From a virus, in the IMG/VR virus record IMGVR_UViG_3300032267_000076, positions 1 through 26,071 of that record: DNA of 26,071 nt, one strand, 5' to 3'. The first letter of the stretch is position 1, and every line of letters begins with the position of its first letter. Shown piece after piece: positions 12,789 through 25,886 of the stretch. A program made the translations under genes and the position numbers. The notes beneath the pieces are model-generated. The model was not told the DNA's origin and searched no databases. It saw only the letters and a program-made list of their open reading frames with translations.

Positions 12789-14117
12789 ATGCCATCACCG
12801 TCACGCTATTATAGTTCGAATGCTGCTAAAACAACTTTAGCGGATTCGATATCTTCTTCAGCAACCAGCTTAACGCTGTCTGCTGCATCTAATTTACCCG
12901 CACAATATCCTTACACACTGATCCTTGAAAAGGATACAGCGAATGAAGAGGTCATTGAGGTAACCAGTCTTGTAGGTTCTTCCTATCAGATCACACGTAA
13001 CATTGACTCATCTGGTGCTAAGGCACACGCTGTTGGTGCTAACGTTGAACACGGTGTATCTGCTAGAGACTTTACAGAATCTAGATCACATGAAATATCA
13101 ACCACTTCTGCTCACGGTGTAACTGGAGACGTAGTTGGTACTGGTGGCACACAAACACTTACTGGAACAAAGACTTTATCCGCAGCAATTATTACTGCTG
13201 CTGGAACATTCAATGCTAATAGCAATAGAATTACAAATGTACCTACTACACCAACAAGTTCTACGGATGCAGTTAACCAAGCATACGTAACTAGCATTTC
13301 TGGCTCTGCTGCTGCTGCAGCAACCAGCGCAACCTCTGCTTCAACTTCAGCAACATCGGCTGCAGCGTCTGCAACCGCTGCTGCTACTAGCGCAACTTCG
13401 GCAGCAACAAGTTTTTCATCTGCATCTACTCAAGCAACCAACGCAGCCACATCTGCTACATCCGCTGCAGCAAGTGCTACCGCAGCAGCAACTAGTGCTA
13501 CTAGTGCTGCTACATCTGCAAGTTCTGCAGCAACACAAGCAACCGCTGCAACCACAAGTGCTACAAGTGCTGCGACTAGTGCATCTTCTGCATTAACTTC
13601 TGCAACTTCTGCTGCTGCTAGTGCTACCGCTGCTGCGACAAGTGCAGCCAGTGCATCAACATCTGCAAGCTCGGCATTAACATCTGCTACAAGTGCTGGT
13701 GCTTCTTATACTTCAGTTGCTGGTCAAGTAGCATCTGGTCTTGTTAGAGATATGGGAGATATTACATCTGCCGATAACTCTACTGGTACATGGATTTCTT
13801 TATCTTCACTTGAAACTAATACACAGGCTTCAGCAACAGCAGCAGCAACTAGTGCAACTAGTGCTGCAGCTTCGGCTACCGCTGCTGCCACTTCAGCAAC
13901 ATCTGCATCCGCATCAGTAACTTCCGCAGCAACTAGCGCAGCCAGTGCTGCAACATCAGCATCTTCAGCAGCAACAAGTGCAACATCGGCAGCAGCAAGT
14001 GCTTCTGCAGCAGCAGGTTATATACCTGCTATCTCTGATGGAGTAAATGGATATTTCTTAACCAATAACGGAACTACCGCTTCTTGGTCCAACCTCTCAG
14101 ATTGGGGAACACTATAA
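12789..14117 (+). CDS. Tail fibre with Ala/Ser/Thr heptad-type repeats
   Basis: A 442-residue structural protein. Residues about 12-100 form a beta domain (SATSLTLSAASNLPAQYP, then EEVIEVTSLVGSSYQITR and a KAHAVG segment) like the attachment domains of actinophage fibres. Residues about 110-165 contain TLTGTKTL and a TDAVNQAYV segment typical of trimeric fibres. Residues about 171-302 and 348-411 are almost wholly Ala/Ser/Thr, separated by a short ordered segment (VRDMGDITSADNSTGTWISL). Such repeats form long trimeric shafts. The C-terminus is a short domain (GVNGYFLTNNGTTASW). It is encoded first of a fibre/adhesin series and its stop overlaps the next ATG (TAATG). Receptor specificity cannot be read from the sequence. 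Confidence 0.8.
   Translation: MPSPSRYYSSNAAKTTLADSISSSATSLTLSAASNLPAQYPYTLILEKDTANEEVIEVTSLVGSSYQITRNIDSSGAKAHAVGANVEHGVSARDFTESRSHEISTTSAHGVTGDVVGTGGTQTLTGTKTLSAAIITAAGTFNANSNRITNVPTTPTSSTDAVNQAYVTSISGSAAAAATSATSASTSATSAAASATAAATSATSAATSFSSASTQATNAATSATSAAASATAAATSATSAATSASSAATQATAATTSATSAATSASSALTSATSAAASATAAATSAASASTSASSALTSATSAGASYTSVAGQVASGLVRDMGDITSADNSTGTWISLSSLETNTQASATAAATSATSAAASATAAATSATSASASVTSAATSAASAATSASSAATSATSAAASASAAAGYIPAISDGVNGYFLTNNGTTASWSNLSDWGTL
13347..13556 (+). repeat. Two tandem 35-residue (105-bp) fibre repeats
   Basis: Copy one (13347-13451) and copy two (13452-13556) encode nearly the same 35 residues (SATSAAASATAAATSATSAA, then an SS, TQAT and AAT ending), with four protein differences. 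Thirty-five residues equal five heptads. The DNA copies differ at many synonymous positions, including serine switches between TCN and AGY codons, so the repeat is preserved at protein rather than DNA level. Degenerate versions continue on both sides. Confidence 0.8.
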
Positions 14118-14692: not shown

Positions 14693-16420
14693 ATGCCACT
14701 TATCGGTACATTAGCAGGAGGCTCAGCCAGAGGCTTGGGCGGTATGAGAACTTTTGGACCATCAGCCTTAACTTATGAATTGTTGGTTATTGGTGGCGGA
14801 GGTGGTGGTGGTGGCGATGGTGGAGGAGGTGGAGGTGCAGGTGGAGTTCTTCACTTTGCAACGGAAACCCTAACCCTTGCCACTAGTTACAGTTGTGTTG
14901 TTGGCGCTGGTGGGTGGGATTATTCTGCTGGTAGAGGCAATAACTCTCAATTTGGTTCTTTAACTGCTGCGTTAGGTGGCGGTGGCGGTAAAGCAAATGG
15001 CGGTGTAACTACGCATATGTCAGGTGGTTCTGGCGGTGGCGCTTCTGGTTTTGCAGTTGGAACTGGTGGAGCATCTACTCAAAGTTTAGGAACAGCAACT
15101 ACCAAATATGGTAATGCTGGAGGAAGTAATCCAAGTGCTAGTTATTATGGAGGCGCAGGTGGAGGTGGTGCTGGTGCTGCCGCTACTGATACGGCTGGTG
15201 GTTCTGGCAGTGCAGGCGGCGCTGGAACAAATGCTTTTTCTACTTGGGCAACTGCAACTGGCACTGGCGTTAGTGGTTATTACGCAGGCGGTGGTGGTGG
15301 CGGTAATGGTGCAAATCAAACTGGTGCAGCAGGAGGCGCAGGCGGTGGAGCACAAGGTGGTGGACCAAACGGTGCTGCTAATGATGGTTTAGCCCGTGGT
15401 CCTGGCGCAATAAATACTGGTTCTGGTGGCGGTGGTGGTTCTGGTAACCCAAGCTATCCTGGCGCGGGTGGATCAGGAATTGTTATAGCCCGCTATCAAT
15501 CTGCTACACAAAAAGCATCTGGTGGTAATACTGTTGTTTCTTCTGGTGGATATTTTTATCATACATTTACTTCGTCAGGAACTTTTTATACTGATTGGGG
15601 AACTGCCAAAGCAACAGGTGGAGATATTTACACCGATGGTACTTATTGGTACCACGCATTTAGGTCTTCAGGAACATTTACTCCTACTCAATCATTAACT
15701 GCCAATATATTGGTTATTGGTGGCGGTGGCGGTGGAGGATCAAACATTGGTGGAGGTGGAGGCGCAGGTGGCTTGCAATATCACACATCTCAAAACTTAT
15801 CTGTAACCCCATACACTTGCACTGTTGGTAATGGTGGAACTGGTCCAATAGTAACCCCTAATTATCAGGGCGGTACTGGTGGTGCTTCACAATTTGCTGG
15901 ATTAACTTCTGCAGCAGGTGGTGGTTATGGAAGTGGTGCTAATAATACCTCTATCCCATCTGGTTCAGGTGCAAGCAGCGGTGGTAGCAGAGCAGGCGAC
16001 CCAATAGGTTCTGCAAGTAATGGAAATGTTGGTGCCAATGCTACTGGGTATGCAAACATAGCAGGTGGTGGCGGTGGATTTGGTGGAGCAGGAACACAAG
16101 CAACTTCTTCTTCAGGTGGAAATGGTGGTATTGGTACTGCTACTTATTCATCTTGGGCAAACGCAACTGGAACTGGTGACAGTGGTTATTATTGTGGTGG
16201 TGGTGGTGGTTCGGGCTATTCAGGTTCACCAGGTGGTCCTGCTGGTGCGGGTGGTTTAGGTGGTGGTGGTAACGGATTCTTGTATTCAACTGTTCCTTCA
16301 ACTCCAGGAAAACCAAATACTGGTGGCGGTGGTGGCGGTGGATATAGCGATGGTCAGACTAATCCTGTGCAATACAATAACGGCGGTTCAGGTGTCATTA
16401 TAGTAAGATATGCAGTCTAA
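14693..16420 (+). CDS. Glycine-rich tail adhesin with two tandem modules
   Basis: A 575-residue protein with very high Gly content. Two modules share the same layout: a strand ELLVIGG or NILVIGG followed by a poly-Gly run and GGAGG, a Cys-containing strand (SYSCVVGAGG or PYTCTVGNGG), long Gly-rich loops, and the closing motif GGSGIVIARY or GGSGVIIVRY. Module one is about residues 30-268, module two about 339-575. Between them two short repeats read GYFYHTFTSSGTF and TYWYHAFRSSGTF. Gly-rich domains of this type occur at the tips of phage fibres, where packed polyglycine helices present variable loops. It has a strong ribosome site (AAGGAGATCT) and lies last in the large fibre genes, fitting a receptor-binding adhesin. 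Confidence 0.75.
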   Translation: MPLIGTLAGGSARGLGGMRTFGPSALTYELLVIGGGGGGGGDGGGGGGAGGVLHFATETLTLATSYSCVVGAGGWDYSAGRGNNSQFGSLTAALGGGGGKANGGVTTHMSGGSGGGASGFAVGTGGASTQSLGTATTKYGNAGGSNPSASYYGGAGGGGAGAAATDTAGGSGSAGGAGTNAFSTWATATGTGVSGYYAGGGGGGNGANQTGAAGGAGGGAQGGGPNGAANDGLARGPGAINTGSGGGGGSGNPSYPGAGGSGIVIARYQSATQKASGGNTVVSSGGYFYHTFTSSGTFYTDWGTAKATGGDIYTDGTYWYHAFRSSGTFTPTQSLTANILVIGGGGGGGSNIGGGGGAGGLQYHTSQNLSVTPYTCTVGNGGTGPIVTPNYQGGTGGASQFAGLTSAAGGGYGSGANNTSIPSGSGASSGGSRAGDPIGSASNGNVGANATGYANIAGGGGGFGGAGTQATSSSGGNGGIGTATYSSWANATGTGDSGYYCGGGGGSGYSGSPGGPAGAGGLGGGGNGFLYSTVPSTPGKPNTGGGGGGGYSDGQTNPVQYNNGGSGVIIVRYAV

Positions 16421-20032: not shown

Positions 20033-20042
20033 GGCTAAGAAG

Positions 20043-20076
20043 AGAGGGGGATCTTAATTGATCCCCCTCTTTTTTT
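20043..20076 (+). terminator. Strong intrinsic terminator of the late operon
   Basis: AGAGGGGGATC (20043-20053), loop TTAATT, GATCCCCCTCT (20060-20070), then six T (20071-20076). An 11-bp perfect stem followed by a U tract, 10 bases after the last late gene stop. Confidence 0.92.
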
Positions 20077-20095
20077 GTTTCCTATTATCTTTCAC

Positions 20096-20166: not shown

Positions 20167-20403
20167 GTGTCGCTACCAAATAATGTCAGTTGGTTAGATT
20201 ACTATTCGACTATGAACGAACTTCCTCCTCATAGATCTTATAGCCAGTTATCTACATGGCAGTCCTGCCCACAGAAATACTATCTTAGCAAAATAGCTAT
20301 GGTTCCAGAGAAACCTGCGGTATACCTTGCTGCTGGTTCGGCTGTCCACTCCATGCTGGAGTGGTTAAACCATGAGTTCTATAAGAAGCAACTTGGCAAT
20401 TGA
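20167..20403 (+). CDS. N-terminal half of a split RecB/Cas4-like Fe-S nuclease
   Basis: A 78-residue protein carrying the first part of a PD-(D/E)XK exonuclease: YSQLSTWQSCPQKYYL (25-40), with Cys34 as the expected first ligand of a 4Fe-4S cluster, and AAGSAVHSMLEWL (55-67), containing the GxxxH motif with His61. It stops before the catalytic Asp and Lys residues, which are encoded at 20583-21254 in another frame. It starts at GTG with no ribosome site but right after a -10 element, suggesting leaderless translation; ATG 20212 is an alternative start that keeps the motifs. It overlaps the zinc-ribbon ORF by 32 bases. It may pair with the C-terminal half, or be a remnant of a broken gene. Confidence 0.75.
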   Translation: MSLPNNVSWLDYYSTMNELPPHRSYSQLSTWQSCPQKYYLSKIAMVPEKPAVYLAAGSAVHSMLEWLNHEFYKKQLGN

Positions 20404-20596
20404 CCAGCGTGGTATACCAAGTAATGAGTGTATCAACTGTGGCTCAGACATACAGGTCATTAGAGCAATCTTTAAAGATTACGAACTGGTCATGTGGTTT
20501 CTTGATTCTTTCTGCGCTAACTGCGGTTCTCCTATGACCGCCCCAACACCAGCCGATCACCCTGAGTACAAAGGAGAGACTGATGACTTCCTTTGA
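20372..20596 (+). CDS. Small zinc-ribbon-like protein lying between nuclease halves
   Basis: A 74-residue protein with Cys20-x2-Cys23 (CINCGSD) and Cys48-x2-Cys51 (CANCGSP) separated by 24 residues including a helix (FKDYELVMWFLDSF). Four cysteines in this layout suggest a zinc ribbon. A GGAG ribosome site (20358-20361) lies 10 bases before the ATG. It overlaps the end of the N-terminal nuclease half by 32 bases and the start of the C-terminal half by 14. Its frame differs from both halves, so it is not a simple fused part. The tail is Pro-rich then acidic (HPEYKGETDDFL). Possible nuclease accessory or inserted gene; function unknown. Confidence 0.65.
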   Translation: MSSIRSNLAIDQRGIPSNECINCGSDIQVIRAIFKDYELVMWFLDSFCANCGSPMTAPTPADHPEYKGETDDFL

Positions 20597-21254
20597 TTTG
20601 ACACAGAAGTGGCTTGAGGTATTTAATGATGCCGTCAAGGAGACCGAAGACAAGACAGGTATTCCCTCGACAGAGTGGAAGACGGCTGGACGCAAGACCA
20701 CCTTGCGCCCAGACGGAGAAGATCTATCGTTTTGGCAAAGCGATGGACTCAAGCAGGTAGAGGCATATCAGAAATGGTATGAGTCTTCTGGTTGGCAAAT
20801 TGCTACGATGCCAGATGGTCGTCCTGGAATTGAATGGTCAGCAGATGTTCACTTCGGGGGAACACCAGTTCGATTTATTGTTGATGCGATCTACCAAGTA
20901 GGGGAAGACTTGGTAATCGTTGACTACAAGACAGGTTCTAGGACACCATTCGGTATGATTCAAGCAGGCTTATATGCTGCTGGTATTGAAAAAGCTTATG
21001 GCATTCGCCCCAAGTGGGGAGCATTCTTTATGACAAGATCAGGTTCGCTTGACGATCTAATAGATTTGTCGCACCTAACAGTAGAATATTTTGATTATGT
21101 ATTCGGAGCAATGAACCATTCAGTATTACAAGGATGGTTCCCACCATCCGTAGGCGACTCATGTCGCATGTGTTCATTCCAATCCCAATGCCCAGCCATG
21201 GGTAGTAAAAGTTTCCCATTGAAAATACCAACAACAAAGGGAAAGAAAGGATGA
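20583..21254 (+). CDS. C-terminal half of a split RecB/Cas4-like Fe-S nuclease
   Basis: A 223-residue protein carrying the catalytic part of a PD-(D/E)XK nuclease: Asp101 in FIVDAIY, Asp114 and Lys116 in IVDYKTG, the QAGLYA motif at 127-132, and a Cys194-x2-Cys197-x5-Cys203 cluster (SCRMCSFQSQC). In AddB/Cas4-type nucleases the last three Cys join one N-terminal Cys to hold a 4Fe-4S cluster; that Cys and the GxxxH motif are in the separate protein at 20167-20403. The start is supported by a strong AAAGGAGAG ribosome site. The likely role is DNA end processing during phage recombination or replication, or host DNA breakdown. Its tail is basic (TTKGKKG). Confidence 0.82.
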   Translation: MTSFDLTQKWLEVFNDAVKETEDKTGIPSTEWKTAGRKTTLRPDGEDLSFWQSDGLKQVEAYQKWYESSGWQIATMPDGRPGIEWSADVHFGGTPVRFIVDAIYQVGEDLVIVDYKTGSRTPFGMIQAGLYAAGIEKAYGIRPKWGAFFMTRSGSLDDLIDLSHLTVEYFDYVFGAMNHSVLQGWFPPSVGDSCRMCSFQSQCPAMGSKSFPLKIPTTKGKKG

Positions 21255-21260
21255 ACATAG

Positions 21261-21701
21261 ATGACTGAGTCTAAGTTCTCATACACAGGTAAGCTAAACA
21301 GTACTGACCTATTCACCGTCCGAGGTGACAGTGCTGCTGAGTTTGCTACTAACATGCAAGCTGCAGTTGAAGCAATCAAAGCAGCAACTGAACTACAGAT
21401 CGCCCTTGGTGGTCGTGGTGGCATGACATCAATGGATAAATCAATGCAAGTACTAACTGCTAGTGGGTTAAATCCAACTGTAGTTCCTGCTGGTATTGAA
21501 GTAATCAAAGATAGATACGACAATGAATGGACATATGGTCACCCAGATGCACCTGATCTACCAGATGGTAGAGGTAAGTACGCTAAGAAGAAGGGCGTAT
21601 CGAAAGCAGGCAAGTCTTACATAGGTTGGTTTGATCCAGCTAAGGGACCAAAGCCATTTACTGTTGGCGCAGTAGAAGCAGAAACAATCTGGACTAAGTA
21701 A
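21261..21701 (+). CDS. Conserved actinophage protein next to the nuclease
   Basis: A 146-residue protein beginning with beta strands (KFSYTGKLNSTDLFTVRGDS), then a helix (AAEFATNMQAAVEAIKAAT), a central low-order part with a GGRGG run, and a C-terminal segment rich in Lys/Gly/Asp with SYIGWFDPAKG and AETIWTK. The pattern of a TLFTVRGDSAEEF-like start and a GWF...IW end recalls a small protein commonly encoded next to the RecB-like exonuclease in actinobacterial phages, thought by some annotations to bind single-stranded DNA; I do not regard that as established. No Cys motif is present in this copy. Ribosome site AAAGGA lies about 12 bases upstream. Confidence 0.6.
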   Translation: MTESKFSYTGKLNSTDLFTVRGDSAAEFATNMQAAVEAIKAATELQIALGGRGGMTSMDKSMQVLTASGLNPTVVPAGIEVIKDRYDNEWTYGHPDAPDLPDGRGKYAKKKGVSKAGKSYIGWFDPAKGPKPFTVGAVEAETIWTK

Positions 21702-21704
21702 TCC

Positions 21705-22538
21705 ATGCGTACCTTATTGCAAGTAGTAGGGGTCGAATCTCCAGCAGGGCATGCCCTTCCTGAGATTCTCCCTCAACTCACCAGCAATCAAGTTGTATTC
21801 CGTCAGGCACAATTACACTTGGTTGCAGCGCAACCAGGTGGTGGTAAAACCATGCTTGCTTTATGGTACGCAATTACATCTAAGACTCCAGCATTATATT
21901 TTTCAGCAGACTCTGATTCAAGAACGATAGCCCTTCGTGCTGGTGCAATCCTAATGAATAAATCAGTAACTGATATGGAGAAGATGATGGACTCTGATGC
22001 ATCTGTCTTATTGGAAGATGCACTGGCTGATGGTGCTTCACATGTTCGTTTTAGTTTTGACCCCTCTCCTTCTTTACAAGATATTGAAGAAGAGATTGAA
22101 GCTTGGATTGAACTGCACGGTGCTCCACCATCAGCAATCTATATAGATAATTTAATGAATGTTGCTGCAGTTAGCGACAATGAATGGACAGCATTGCGTG
22201 ATGCAATGTCTGCGTTCCACTACATGGCTAGAGAATATGAATCAGCGTTCATAGTGCTACACCATGTATCTGAAAATGAGAAGATGTCTAAGCCTAACTA
22301 CCCAGCCCCACGTAAAGCTTTAATGGGTAAGGTCTCCGCCTTACCTGAACTGGTACTGAGCGTAGCGTTAGATGCTATAGCCAATGCATACAGAGTTGCT
22401 GTTGTAAAGAATCGCCATGGTAAGGCTGATCCAACGGCAGAAAATTATATAACTTTATCTGTTGAACCAAGTCATATGAGTTTATATAACTCTCCCGCAG
22501 AATTAAACAGGGCAAGGACTTTGCAACAATGGAAGTAG
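21705..22538 (+). CDS. RecA/DnaB-like P-loop ATPase
   Basis: A 277-residue ATPase. Walker A is AAQPGGGKTM (41-50) with Lys48 and Thr49; an acidic-Arg segment follows at SADSDSRTIALRAG; Walker B is the hydrophobic AIYIDNLM near residue 145; a further segment SAFIVLHHVSEN matches the Q/H motif region of RecA-fold ATPases. The DnaB N-terminal primase-binding domain is missing and the length is below that of a full replicative helicase. It may be a stripped-down helicase, a helicase loader or a recombination ATPase. It begins three bases after the upstream stop with no ribosome site, and its end overlaps the next gene by 10 bases, so translation is probably coupled. Confidence 0.78.
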   Translation: MRTLLQVVGVESPAGHALPEILPQLTSNQVVFRQAQLHLVAAQPGGGKTMLALWYAITSKTPALYFSADSDSRTIALRAGAILMNKSVTDMEKMMDSDASVLLEDALADGASHVRFSFDPSPSLQDIEEEIEAWIELHGAPPSAIYIDNLMNVAAVSDNEWTALRDAMSAFHYMAREYESAFIVLHHVSENEKMSKPNYPAPRKALMGKVSALPELVLSVALDAIANAYRVAVVKNRHGKADPTAENYITLSVEPSHMSLYNSPAELNRARTLQQWK

Positions 22539-23300: not shown

Positions 23301-23430
23301 TGTTTGGAGACGCAGGTGTCAACGATCTGGATGTAATGAATATGTATATCTAAAGATTGGAACAAGAGTTCCAGAAATTTTATGTAAAGATTGTAGAGAT
23401 TCGGAGTGGGTTAATGTCAACACCAAGTAA
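23284..23430 (+). CDS. Small four-cysteine zinc-ribbon protein (48 aa)
   Basis: A 48-residue frame beginning MLMSNNVWRRRCQRSGCNEY with Cys12-x4-Cys17, then Cys34-x2-Cys37 (EILCKDCRDSEW) after 16 residues. The spacing fits a small zinc ribbon. It starts within the end of whiB (17-base overlap), ends 17 bases inside the resolvase-like gene, and fills a gap of 113 bases in a packed operon. The start may be ATG 23284 or 23290. A nucleic-acid-binding or protein-interaction role is possible; no family name is offered. Regular Cys spacing and gap-filling are the main support. Confidence 0.7.
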   Translation: MLMSNNVWRRRCQRSGCNEYVYLKIGTRVPEILCKDCRDSEWVNVNTK

Positions 23431-23767
23431 ACGCAAAGGCTCGCAGTATGAGCGTGATGTATCCAAGTGGTTAGTTGCTAATGGTTTCCCTTGCGCTGAG
23501 CGGGCGTATGGTGCAGGTAGGCACGACGACGTCGGCGATATTGATGGCATAGATGGTGTTGTAGTAGAATGTAAGAATGAAAAAAAGATAGATTTGTCTG
23601 GGTATATGAAAGAGTTAGACAATGAAATGACTCATGCAGATGCCGAGACTGGAGTGGTACTAGTAAAGAAACGTGGCACAACAAATGTCTCAGAGTCGTA
23701 TGCAGTAATGCCTGCGCAACTCTGGGTCGATCTGCTTAAACAGGCAGGTTACAATGGACATAGATAA
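23414..23767 (+). CDS. Holliday-junction-resolvase-like PD-(D/E)XK nuclease
   Basis: A 117-residue protein with the Hjc-type arrangement: a basic start KRKGSQYERDVSKWL containing Glu13, GRHDDVGDIDGI containing Asp42, and VVVECKN containing Glu52 and Lys54. This E, D, ExK series is the active site of archaeal-type and phage resolvases that cut four-way DNA junctions. The start at 23414 is preferred over an in-frame ATG at 23357 because GGAG lies eight to ten bases upstream and the extra residues are encoded inside the zinc-ribbon gene. A resolvase near nuclease and primase genes fits debranching of replication intermediates before packaging. Confidence 0.82.
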   Translation: MSTPSKRKGSQYERDVSKWLVANGFPCAERAYGAGRHDDVGDIDGIDGVVVECKNEKKIDLSGYMKELDNEMTHADAETGVVLVKKRGTTNVSESYAVMPAQLWVDLLKQAGYNGHR

Positions 23768-24183: not shown

Positions 24184-24513
24184 ATGAATCAATCTGAATT
24201 TCTTGAAGCAGTTTTTAATCATTATGATTTAACCTTGCCACAAGGAGAGAAGTCTATTCTCTGTCCTGTGCATGATGATTCTCGTAAGTCTGCTTCAGTT
24301 AATTCAGACAAGGGTGTCTGGGTATGTTATGCATGTAACAGTAGTGGTTCTGGTATTCACATAATCATGGCTCGTGAGAAGCTAACATACTCAGAGGCTC
24401 GTAAGTGGGCAGAAAAAAATATAGGATCCGAAAAGAGTAAAGAGTTTGCCACGCCTATGCGTGGCAGAAGACGAACCAATGGTCGGTGGATACCACCAAG
24501 ATTGAGGAAGTAA
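24184..24513 (+). CDS. Primase zinc-binding domain protein (CHC2-type), split primase part 1
   Basis: A 109-residue protein with the DnaG-type zinc-binding motif: Cys27-x2-His30 (ILCPVHDDSRKSASV) and Cys48-x2-Cys51 (GVWVCYACNSSG), followed by GSGIHIIMAREKLTYSEA and a basic tail with MRGRRRTNGRW. In bacterial and phage primases this domain recognises the template and is joined to a Toprim catalytic domain; here the Toprim domain is in a separate gene at 25242-25886. It starts after an AAAGGA site about 11 bases upstream and directly follows the stop of the transglycosylase gene. Two genes lie between the two primase parts. The split form is a genuine feature rather than a frameshift, because both genes have their own starts. 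Confidence 0.88.
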   Translation: MNQSEFLEAVFNHYDLTLPQGEKSILCPVHDDSRKSASVNSDKGVWVCYACNSSGSGIHIIMAREKLTYSEARKWAEKNIGSEKSKEFATPMRGRRRTNGRWIPPRLRK

Positions 24514-25046
24514 TGACAACCATCATTGGTATACAAAAGAATGATTACTGTGTTATCGCAGCCGACTCTCGTACAACTACAGAGAAGGGCAGACCATACT
24601 CTCATCCTATTATTACAAAGATTACTAAGCGTGGTAAGTATATAATTGCAGGAGCTGGCACAACCATGCCATGCGATACCATCCAACATATCTGGAAACC
24701 ACCAGCACTACCACCTTCAGTTAAAGATCCATATCATTTTATGATTACAGATATAGTTCCTAGTATGCGTGAGTGTTTGAAAGACAATGGTTGGGTTGCG
24801 GATGATAAATCAGATGACTATGAATTTTTATTTTTAATTGCAGTTAACGGAACTATTTATGAAATAGACGATACCTTCTCGGTATTCTTGCGTGATGATG
24901 GTGTGTATGGAATAGGATCAGGATCTTCTTATGCAGTAGGTGCGTTACAACAAGGCGCAACTTGGCGTAAGGCGTTGCAAATAGCAACGAGGAATGATGT
25001 GTATACTGCACCTCCATTCTTAATGCACAGACAGGAGAAGAGGTAG
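24513..25046 (+). CDS. HslV/proteasome-like Ntn peptidase
   Basis: A 177-residue protein of the proteasome beta-type fold. It begins MTTIIGIQKNDYCVIAADSR; removal of Met exposes Thr as the N-terminal nucleophile. Counting this Thr as 1, Asp17 lies in AADSR and Lys35 near the usual Lys33 position in PIITKITK, and a GSG turn (134-136) matches the usual Ser129 region (YGIGSGSSYAVGAL). There is no propeptide, as in HslV. The tail has KALQIATRNDVYTAPPF. No HslU-like ATPase is present in the window. I recognise similar proteins in other actinophages. It starts by TAATG overlap with the primase part-1 gene. Likely a self-compartmentalised protease; target and partner are unknown. Confidence 0.82.
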   Translation: MTTIIGIQKNDYCVIAADSRTTTEKGRPYSHPIITKITKRGKYIIAGAGTTMPCDTIQHIWKPPALPPSVKDPYHFMITDIVPSMRECLKDNGWVADDKSDDYEFLFLIAVNGTIYEIDDTFSVFLRDDGVYGIGSGSSYAVGALQQGATWRKALQIATRNDVYTAPPFLMHRQEKR

Positions 25047-25252
25047 TGGGAAGACTTAGTTTATATGTAGGGTTTAATCGTATTTATTGTTGGGGTCTTG
25101 GTATTACTTACCACACTATGACTTCAGTATATGAAGATTTAGATTCACTTGATCTGGTTGAGTATATAGATGCCAGAGTAATGCGTTTTGATTTCTTAAT
25201 ATTTTATATTAACTTTACCTCATGGGCGAAGCAGGAGTGGGATGAGAATTAA
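25046..25252 (+). CDS. Small hypothetical protein (68 aa)
   Basis: A 68-residue protein starting at GTG one base within the previous stop (TAGTG) behind GAGG. It is rich in aromatic and hydrophobic residues: LSLYVGFNRIYCWGLGITYH, then an acidic helix (SVYEDLDSLDLVEYIDARVM) and a hydrophobic segment FDFLIFYINFTSW. Similar small proteins with a strand start and a hydrophobic tail occur in actinophage replication regions, with no known function. It might contact the membrane or the peptidase encoded before it, but there is no direct sign. It overlaps the next gene by 11 bases. Confidence 0.6.
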   Translation: MGRLSLYVGFNRIYCWGLGITYHTMTSVYEDLDSLDLVEYIDARVMRFDFLIFYINFTSWAKQEWDEN

Positions 25253-25886
25253 TCCAAAGCTAATTGAACTATGGACTAGAGCAGCCAAGCAATACCACGA
25301 GAGCCTTGCTGGTTCACCAGCAGAGGCTTACTTAAAAGAGCGTGGGATTCTTGATGGTGCTAGTCGGTTCATGCTTGGATATGTAGCAGAGGTAGCACCT
25401 GGGCATGAAGATAGAATCAAGAATCATTTATCTATTCCATATATAACTGAGGCTGGGGTAGTTGGATTTAAGTTCCGTCGTATTGACGGAGGAGATCCTA
25501 AGTACATGATACCTACTGGTCAGAAGCACCACCTATATAATGTTGATGCAATACTCAACGCAATTAATAAAGTCCTAATAGTAGAAGGAGAAATAGATGC
25601 AATCAGTGCAACACTTATTGGTCATCCTGCTGTCGCTGTTGCAGGAGTTAACGCTTGGAAGCCTCACTTTGCTCGTTGCTTTGATGGGATAGGTACAGTA
25701 GTAATCTGTACCGATAACGATGCCAAAGAGGATGGCTCAAATCCTGGGCAGGAACTGGCTAGGAGATTACAAGATGCAATTCCTCAAGCTGTCCGCGTGT
25801 CGCTACCGACTGACAGTGATGTTAATAGTATAATCTGTACACAAGGAGCACAAGCATTGACTGACTTAGTCAATGCGATCAACTAG
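25242..25886 (+). CDS. Toprim primase catalytic subunit, split primase part 2
   Basis: A 214-residue protein. Residues about 17-60 (YHESLAGSPAEAYLKERGIL) and SRFMLGYV match the N-terminal region of the DnaG catalytic core. The Toprim motifs are VLIVEGEIDAISA (Glu115) and VVICTDNDAKEDG (Asp158 and Asp160), with GHPAVAVAGVNAW between. These residues bind the metals used to make RNA primers. It lacks the zinc-binding domain, supplied by the gene at 24184-24513, and has no helicase domain. It starts with GGAG five bases upstream and overlaps the preceding gene. A DnaB-like helicase part may be the ATPase at 21705 or encoded beyond the window. Confidence 0.85.
   Translation: MRINPKLIELWTRAAKQYHESLAGSPAEAYLKERGILDGASRFMLGYVAEVAPGHEDRIKNHLSIPYITEAGVVGFKFRRIDGGDPKYMIPTGQKHHLYNVDAILNAINKVLIVEGEIDAISATLIGHPAVAVAGVNAWKPHFARCFDGIGTVVICTDNDAKEDGSNPGQELARRLQDAIPQAVRVSLPTDSDVNSIICTQGAQALTDLVNAIN

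Follow-up and report, generated by a model that had tools for sequence, protein, structure and literature searches.

Several phage enzymes are encoded as genes-in-pieces, among them NrdA of Aeromonas phage Aeh1, topoisomerase 39/60 of T4, and the product of the split gene 43 of T4-like Aeromonas phages (PMC2988022). For Aeh1 NrdA, activity in pieces was demonstrated. A homing endonuclease at the break is typical of the known cases but not required (PMC2988022).

AddB, AdnA, Dna2, ACE1, and Cas4 are iron-staple nucleases, in which the cluster is thought to tie the two ends of the chain together. To our knowledge, every solved member has one chain running through the nuclease domain, although this is not a mechanistic need. 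In the solved Cas4 proteins, one Cys near the N terminus and three near the C terminus ligate the cluster, and in Pcal_0546, Cys mutations removed the cluster but did not stop cleavage (PMC4176176). Retained cysteines are therefore no proof that catalysis needs the cluster. In actinobacteriophages (Mycobacterium cluster A, Rhodococcus Erik, Gordonia Soups, Streptomyces Ponzi, and Cutibacterium PAC3), related exonucleases of the Cas4 family or RecB-like type are single ORFs of ~260 to 320 aa.

Here we analyze a 26,071-nt stretch of viral DNA (IMG/VR record IMGVR_UViG_3300032267_000076; the whole stretch is referred to as the window), in which a similar exonuclease is distributed over two cistrons with a gene between them. 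Judging from the sequences, we consider it likely that this locus encodes a two-chain recombination exonuclease that originated in an ancestral split, with four Cys residues probably holding one Fe-S cluster across the chains. As in the three genes-in-pieces mentioned above, a phage replication or metabolism enzyme is divided between two cistrons, and the principle of a split enzyme is thus not new. In those cases, however, homing endonucleases or an untranslated insert occupy the break, whereas here no homing endonuclease was recognized, the junction contents vary, the split extends over a wide clade, and the metal-cluster ligands are divided. To the extent of our searches, novelty lies in which enzyme is split, how broad the clade is, the variable small genes of the junction, and the distribution of the metal ligands over two chains. 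No earlier account of this split was found in the literature, a weak negative given that most subscription papers were outside the search. A wide clade of abundant freshwater phages has a core recombination enzyme in two genes. Gene-by-gene annotation would miss such an enzyme, and its half of 61 to 63 aa passes as a small hypothetical protein.

Two ORFs of the window tile one nuclease

According to a preliminary description of the window, a RecB/Cas4-like nuclease is encoded by two separate ORFs of 78 aa (20167-20403; N) and 223 aa (20583-21254; C). Both were confirmed in the sequence and lie in different reading frames. The residues ascribed to them are also present: Cys34 (codon 20266-20268) and the GxxxH motif G-S-A-V-H61 (His codon 20347-20349) in N, and D101, D114-Y-K116, Q127-x3-Y131, and C194-x2-C197-x5-C203 in C. 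The length of N needs correction, since the GTG at 20167 is probably not its start. The sequence comparison points to the ATG at 20212, which gives a protein of 63 aa: it was retained in 66 of 70 distinct N regions, while GTG was found at the position of 20167 in 39 of the 70, and in one relative (L051) a stop codon lies upstream of the equivalent ATG. The claim that C has its own ribosome site held (Table 1); A/G-rich stretches precede the start of C in most relatives inspected. In the window, 180 nt separate N and C, and a conserved 74-aa ORF (M) spans them, which the preliminary description had overlooked.

Table 1. Features of the split exonuclease locus and its surroundings in the window
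Feature	Position	Strand	Remarks
Intrinsic-terminator-like hairpin	20036..20077	+	Stem of 18 pairs, then a T run
N half of the exonuclease, probable 63-aa form	20212..20403	+	First nuclease helices, Fe-S Cys, GxxxH His
Zinc-ribbon-like protein M, 74 aa	20372..20596	+	Conserved ORF, two CxxCG knuckles
Ribosome site AAAGGAG for C	20570..20576	+	Sequence; 6 nt before ATG 20583
C half of the exonuclease, 223 aa	20583..21254	+	Catalytic motifs plus C194/C197/C203
146-aa gene directly after the nuclease	21261..21701	+	No confident family match
DnaB-like helicase	21705..22538	+	phrog_243, 2.9e-74
RusA-like Holliday junction resolvase	23420..23767	+	phrog_244, 3.4e-22

The position of the hairpin is suggestive of an end of the upstream gene block, with N opening a new transcription unit; one terminator-like hairpin was found where 1.2 were expected by chance.

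Consistent with the proposal that the two proteins make one nuclease, their profile matches are complementary. Within the 247 positions of Pfam PDDEXK_1, N matches 3-50 (6.1e-07; 30.1 bits) and C matches 90-247 (9.6e-08; 32.7 bits), both above the cut-off of 22. On the PHROG_1870 exonuclease profile, the matches are to 6-67 and 75-292, respectively, so that N and C tile one nuclease almost without a gap. The enzyme is not assigned to CRISPR-associated Cas4 proper, as the TIGR00372 scores (C, 31.8 bits; N, 16.3 bits) are well under the cut-off of 65.

The fold was judged from an AlphaFold2 model of L222, an environmental homologue that is intact (256 aa; pLDDT 87.5, pTM 0.86). Compared as a full chain including the N part, it matched AdnA with a Z score of 17.0 (223 residues), followed by ACE1 (15.7), AddB (14.6), Dna2 (14.1), and type I-C Cas4 (13.4). 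Thus, the intact homologue resembles the iron-staple nucleases over its whole length (Z 13 to 17), and the pattern of one plus three Cys residues is common to them; while the solved members are single-chain, here the N-terminal Cys and GxxxH are on another polypeptide. In the model, the GxxxH helix (32-49) is connected by a loop (50-55) to the next helix (56-73), and by alignment the end of N and the start of C map around this loop. The modeled break therefore sits in an inter-helix loop of an AddB/AdnA/Cas4-type fold, which would explain why the split was tolerated.

The split is shared by two phage families

Two families of relatives were retrieved from IMG/VR. Family 1, to which the window belongs, comprises 91 distinct C sequences (65 to 100% identity to the window C), and 90 of them are preceded by a separate N. 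Family 2 comprises 98 distinct C sequences with ~30% identity to family 1, preceded by a separate N in 97 cases. Both exceptions are contigs too short upstream to contain N. No single N-C ORF was detected among the 189 distinct sequences of both families, and no C without N among contigs with 1.3 kb of sequence upstream of C. Three family 2 loci (L122, L123, and L125) lacked N at first appearance only, as it was found further upstream. Furthermore, an IMG/VR scan with C yielded 80 loci (77 to 100% identity) with the order N-zinc ribbon-C wherever upstream DNA was present, and the best 80 loci of a scan with the zinc-ribbon profile all had the order N-M-C. One contig of 82,688 bases (IMGVR_UViG_3300027754_000069) harbors two N-M-C loci ~42 kb apart (L291 and L300) and appears to combine the genomes of two related phages.

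By E value, the top relative among isolates was OX376641, the record of phage LanE43-AprF5 (F5; 38,889 bases). Its C is ~30% identical and it is split at the same place, but has no zinc ribbon at the junction. The 115 IMG/VR relatives of OX376641 are split in all cases where N is visible, and so is phage LanE43-AprE7 (E7; OX376640; 39,112 bases). The two records match the two lytic phages of 38.9 and 39.1 kbp isolated on 'Ca. Planktophila' LanE-43 (PMC10202952).

Hence, the split with its conserved motifs is common to a lineage and not peculiar to one copy among intact relatives. Split genes are a common artefact of assembly, and the preliminary description had considered an assembly error at the junction. 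Since the cultured lytic phages E7 and F5 carry the split, such an error is excluded as a general cause; moreover, the same junction recurs in dozens of independent assemblies. A dead gene would be at odds with dN/dS values of 0.07 to 0.10 in both halves, and we assign next to no probability to either explanation.

Outside the overlaps, the family 1 medians of dN/dS were 0.092 (N), 0.088 (zinc ribbon), and 0.104 (C), and the family 2 medians were 0.069 (N) and 0.098 (C). Strong purifying selection acts on both halves, on N as strongly as on C. This selection, together with the sharing of the split among so many phages and the differing junction genes described below, led us to reject the idea that a recent insertion broke the gene. 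As is characteristic of genes-in-pieces, intact homologues exist elsewhere and both split cistrons are under selection.

The nuclease residues and all four cysteines are retained across N and C

The D, DxK, QxxxY, and GxxxH motifs are essentially invariant in both families and distributed over N and C. In family 1, where some contigs were counted twice, Cys34 of N was present in 156/157 copies, the GxxxH His in 159/159, and C194, C197, and C203 in 156/156 each, while D101, D114, K116, Q127, and Y131 were essentially invariant. The Cys pattern of family 2 is likewise conserved. The arrangement of one N-terminal and three C-terminal Cys residues of the iron-staple nucleases is thus present, but across two proteins.

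Metal identity cannot be read from sequence, and the cleavage by Pcal_0546 after cluster loss (PMC4176176) would accommodate a two-chain nuclease without an Fe-S cluster, or one in which the cysteines bind zinc or serve stability only. Such an enzyme seems unlikely to us, because the pattern is that of the solved Fe-S members and the four Cys residues occur in essentially every copy.

We also considered that C acts as an exonuclease that dispenses with N, and that N is a small regulator or DNA-binding piece. N does persist as a gene of its own even ~955 nt away from C. However, the residues that it retains are exactly those of the nuclease (Cys and GxxxH), it aligns with the beginning of the nuclease profiles, its region belongs to the nuclease fold in the intact model, and no C lacks an upstream N on contigs that reach far enough. 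Pieces that had diverged toward unrelated functions would also not be expected to retain all four Cys residues together. We regard separate functions as very improbable.

Junction contents differ between phages

In the window, M lies in the third frame and shares 32 nt with N and 14 nt with C. It is conserved at every family 1 locus whose junction is covered, and both CxxCG knuckles, a typical zinc-ribbon feature, are invariant in 13 aligned copies. In two loci (L022 and L024), the usual ATG of the zinc-ribbon gene reads ACG; the start may be elsewhere or unusual. No fold is claimed for M, for which the model was unreliable (pLDDT 49), and its best PDB sequence matches (0.049 and 0.96) were taken as chance.

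Most family 2 phages have no gene at the junction, and their N and C overlap by a short stretch. Other members of this family have a 71-aa gene (L173 and L174), a ~109-aa gene (L150, L156, L177, and L178), or genes of 107 and 218 aa (3045-4017 in L122, L123, and L125) at this place; in the last case, N and C are ~955 nt apart. The family 2 exonuclease junction is an insertion site for varied small genes, some without a recognized family. In profile searches, the junction genes matched no endonuclease family. As the contents differ, N and C must form separate cistrons, in the phages with such inserts if not in all, and together with the selection on both halves this argues that each is a working gene.

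These inserts also bear on programmed +1 frameshifting, by which N and C would be fused where they overlap and N, the zinc ribbon, and C would be fused in the window family via two shifts. The overlapping N and C of family 2 are always in a +1 relation, a shift at the N stop would yield a continuous homologous protein, and in the window the steps from N to M and from M to C are both +1. Nevertheless, the whole genes between N and C in several family 2 phages (up to ~955 nt) cannot be joined by a shift, so that frameshifting is not a general route to the enzyme. Furthermore, neither the N stop, where TAAC, TAAT, TGAA, and TAGT occur, nor the M stop has a conserved slippery sequence; the start codon of C is retained; and the window would require two successive shifts. 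We regard frameshifting as improbable. With its own start, its own ribosome site, and no kept slip site, separate translation of C is the straightforward reading.

A zinc-ribbon search in isolate phages gave none. In F5 (L321), a free-standing, distant 59-aa relative of M (26775-26954; E 2.5e-05), ~5 kb from the split exonuclease, has the RGxP...C...CG...TAPTPxD pattern in common with M. The free-standing relative points to M being a small gene in its own right, which settled in the junction.

Intact homologues and the origin of the split

Intact homologues were found in mycobacterial, Rhodococcus, Gordonia, Streptomyces, Thermobifida, and Cutibacterium phages. A genome scan with a narrower alignment added five intact prophage-like relatives in five actinobacterial genomes. 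Over the C part, the actinobacteriophage exonucleases are ~25 to 35% identical to the split enzyme, and the motifs and the Cys pattern are alike.

A tree of the C part with 38 rows placed both split families on one side of a branch that separates them from 20 intact rows (support 90/79), and supported each split family by 100/99. The support of 90/79 is moderate, and long branches meet. According to this tree, the split lines likely form one clade with a single origin, although the loop may have been split twice independently.

Gene neighborhood and proposed mode of action

The neighbors of the exonuclease among the ORFs scanned include the DnaB-like helicase, WhiB, the RusA-like Holliday junction resolvase, and a primase. 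A DnaB-like helicase, a downstream neighbor here, is also near the intact exonucleases of Ponzi, Erik, Soups, and P318, and in Ponzi a Holliday junction resolvase is close to the intact exonuclease, as in the window. Based on these neighbors, the exonuclease most likely has a role in phage DNA recombination and processing.

We propose that the gene of a single-chain phage exonuclease of the AddB/AdnA/Cas4 iron-staple type was divided into two cistrons in the lineage ancestral to a freshwater actinophage clade. N (~61 to 63 aa) would provide the first helices, the N-terminal Fe-S Cys, and the GxxxH His, and C (~200 to 223 aa) the D...DxK...QxxxY catalytic core and the remaining three Cys residues. 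The two would be translated separately from one mRNA, on which they overlap or lie close together, and most likely bind each other, rebuilding the complete nuclease. If they reassemble, the cluster must have ligands from two chains, presumably with N contributing one Cys and C three. Together with its neighbors, the DnaB-like helicase and the Holliday junction resolvase, the enzyme would probably act in phage recombination and DNA processing. Once the gene was split, the junction would have become a normal landing place for small genes such as the zinc-ribbon gene.

An extension of this proposal, to which we give a low but not negligible probability, is that the cluster is a staple between the chains, and that N and C turn into a nuclease only once it has formed across their interface. 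Activity would then be gated by cluster assembly or by the supply of N, and in the window family M, translated from the same overlapping message, would be a third subunit or assembly factor. Because the chain is cut and all four ligands are kept, this enzyme can be used to test directly if the staple suffices by itself to keep a nuclease together and if it can act as a switch. The cultured host-phage pairs (E7 and F5 on LanE-43) make the two-chain enzyme testable.

Other observations

The primase of the window is also in pieces, with a CHC2 zinc-finger ORF (24184-24513) and a Toprim ORF (25242-25886); an HslV/proteasome-like ORF (24513-25046) sits between them. In F5, the same primase pieces are adjacent and overlapping (29498-29887 and 29023-29649, minus strand). 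Two further ORFs of the window (12789-14117 and 14693-16420) encode low-complexity proteins, one with ATSAAAS-type repeats and one glycine-rich, which are probably tail or fiber proteins.
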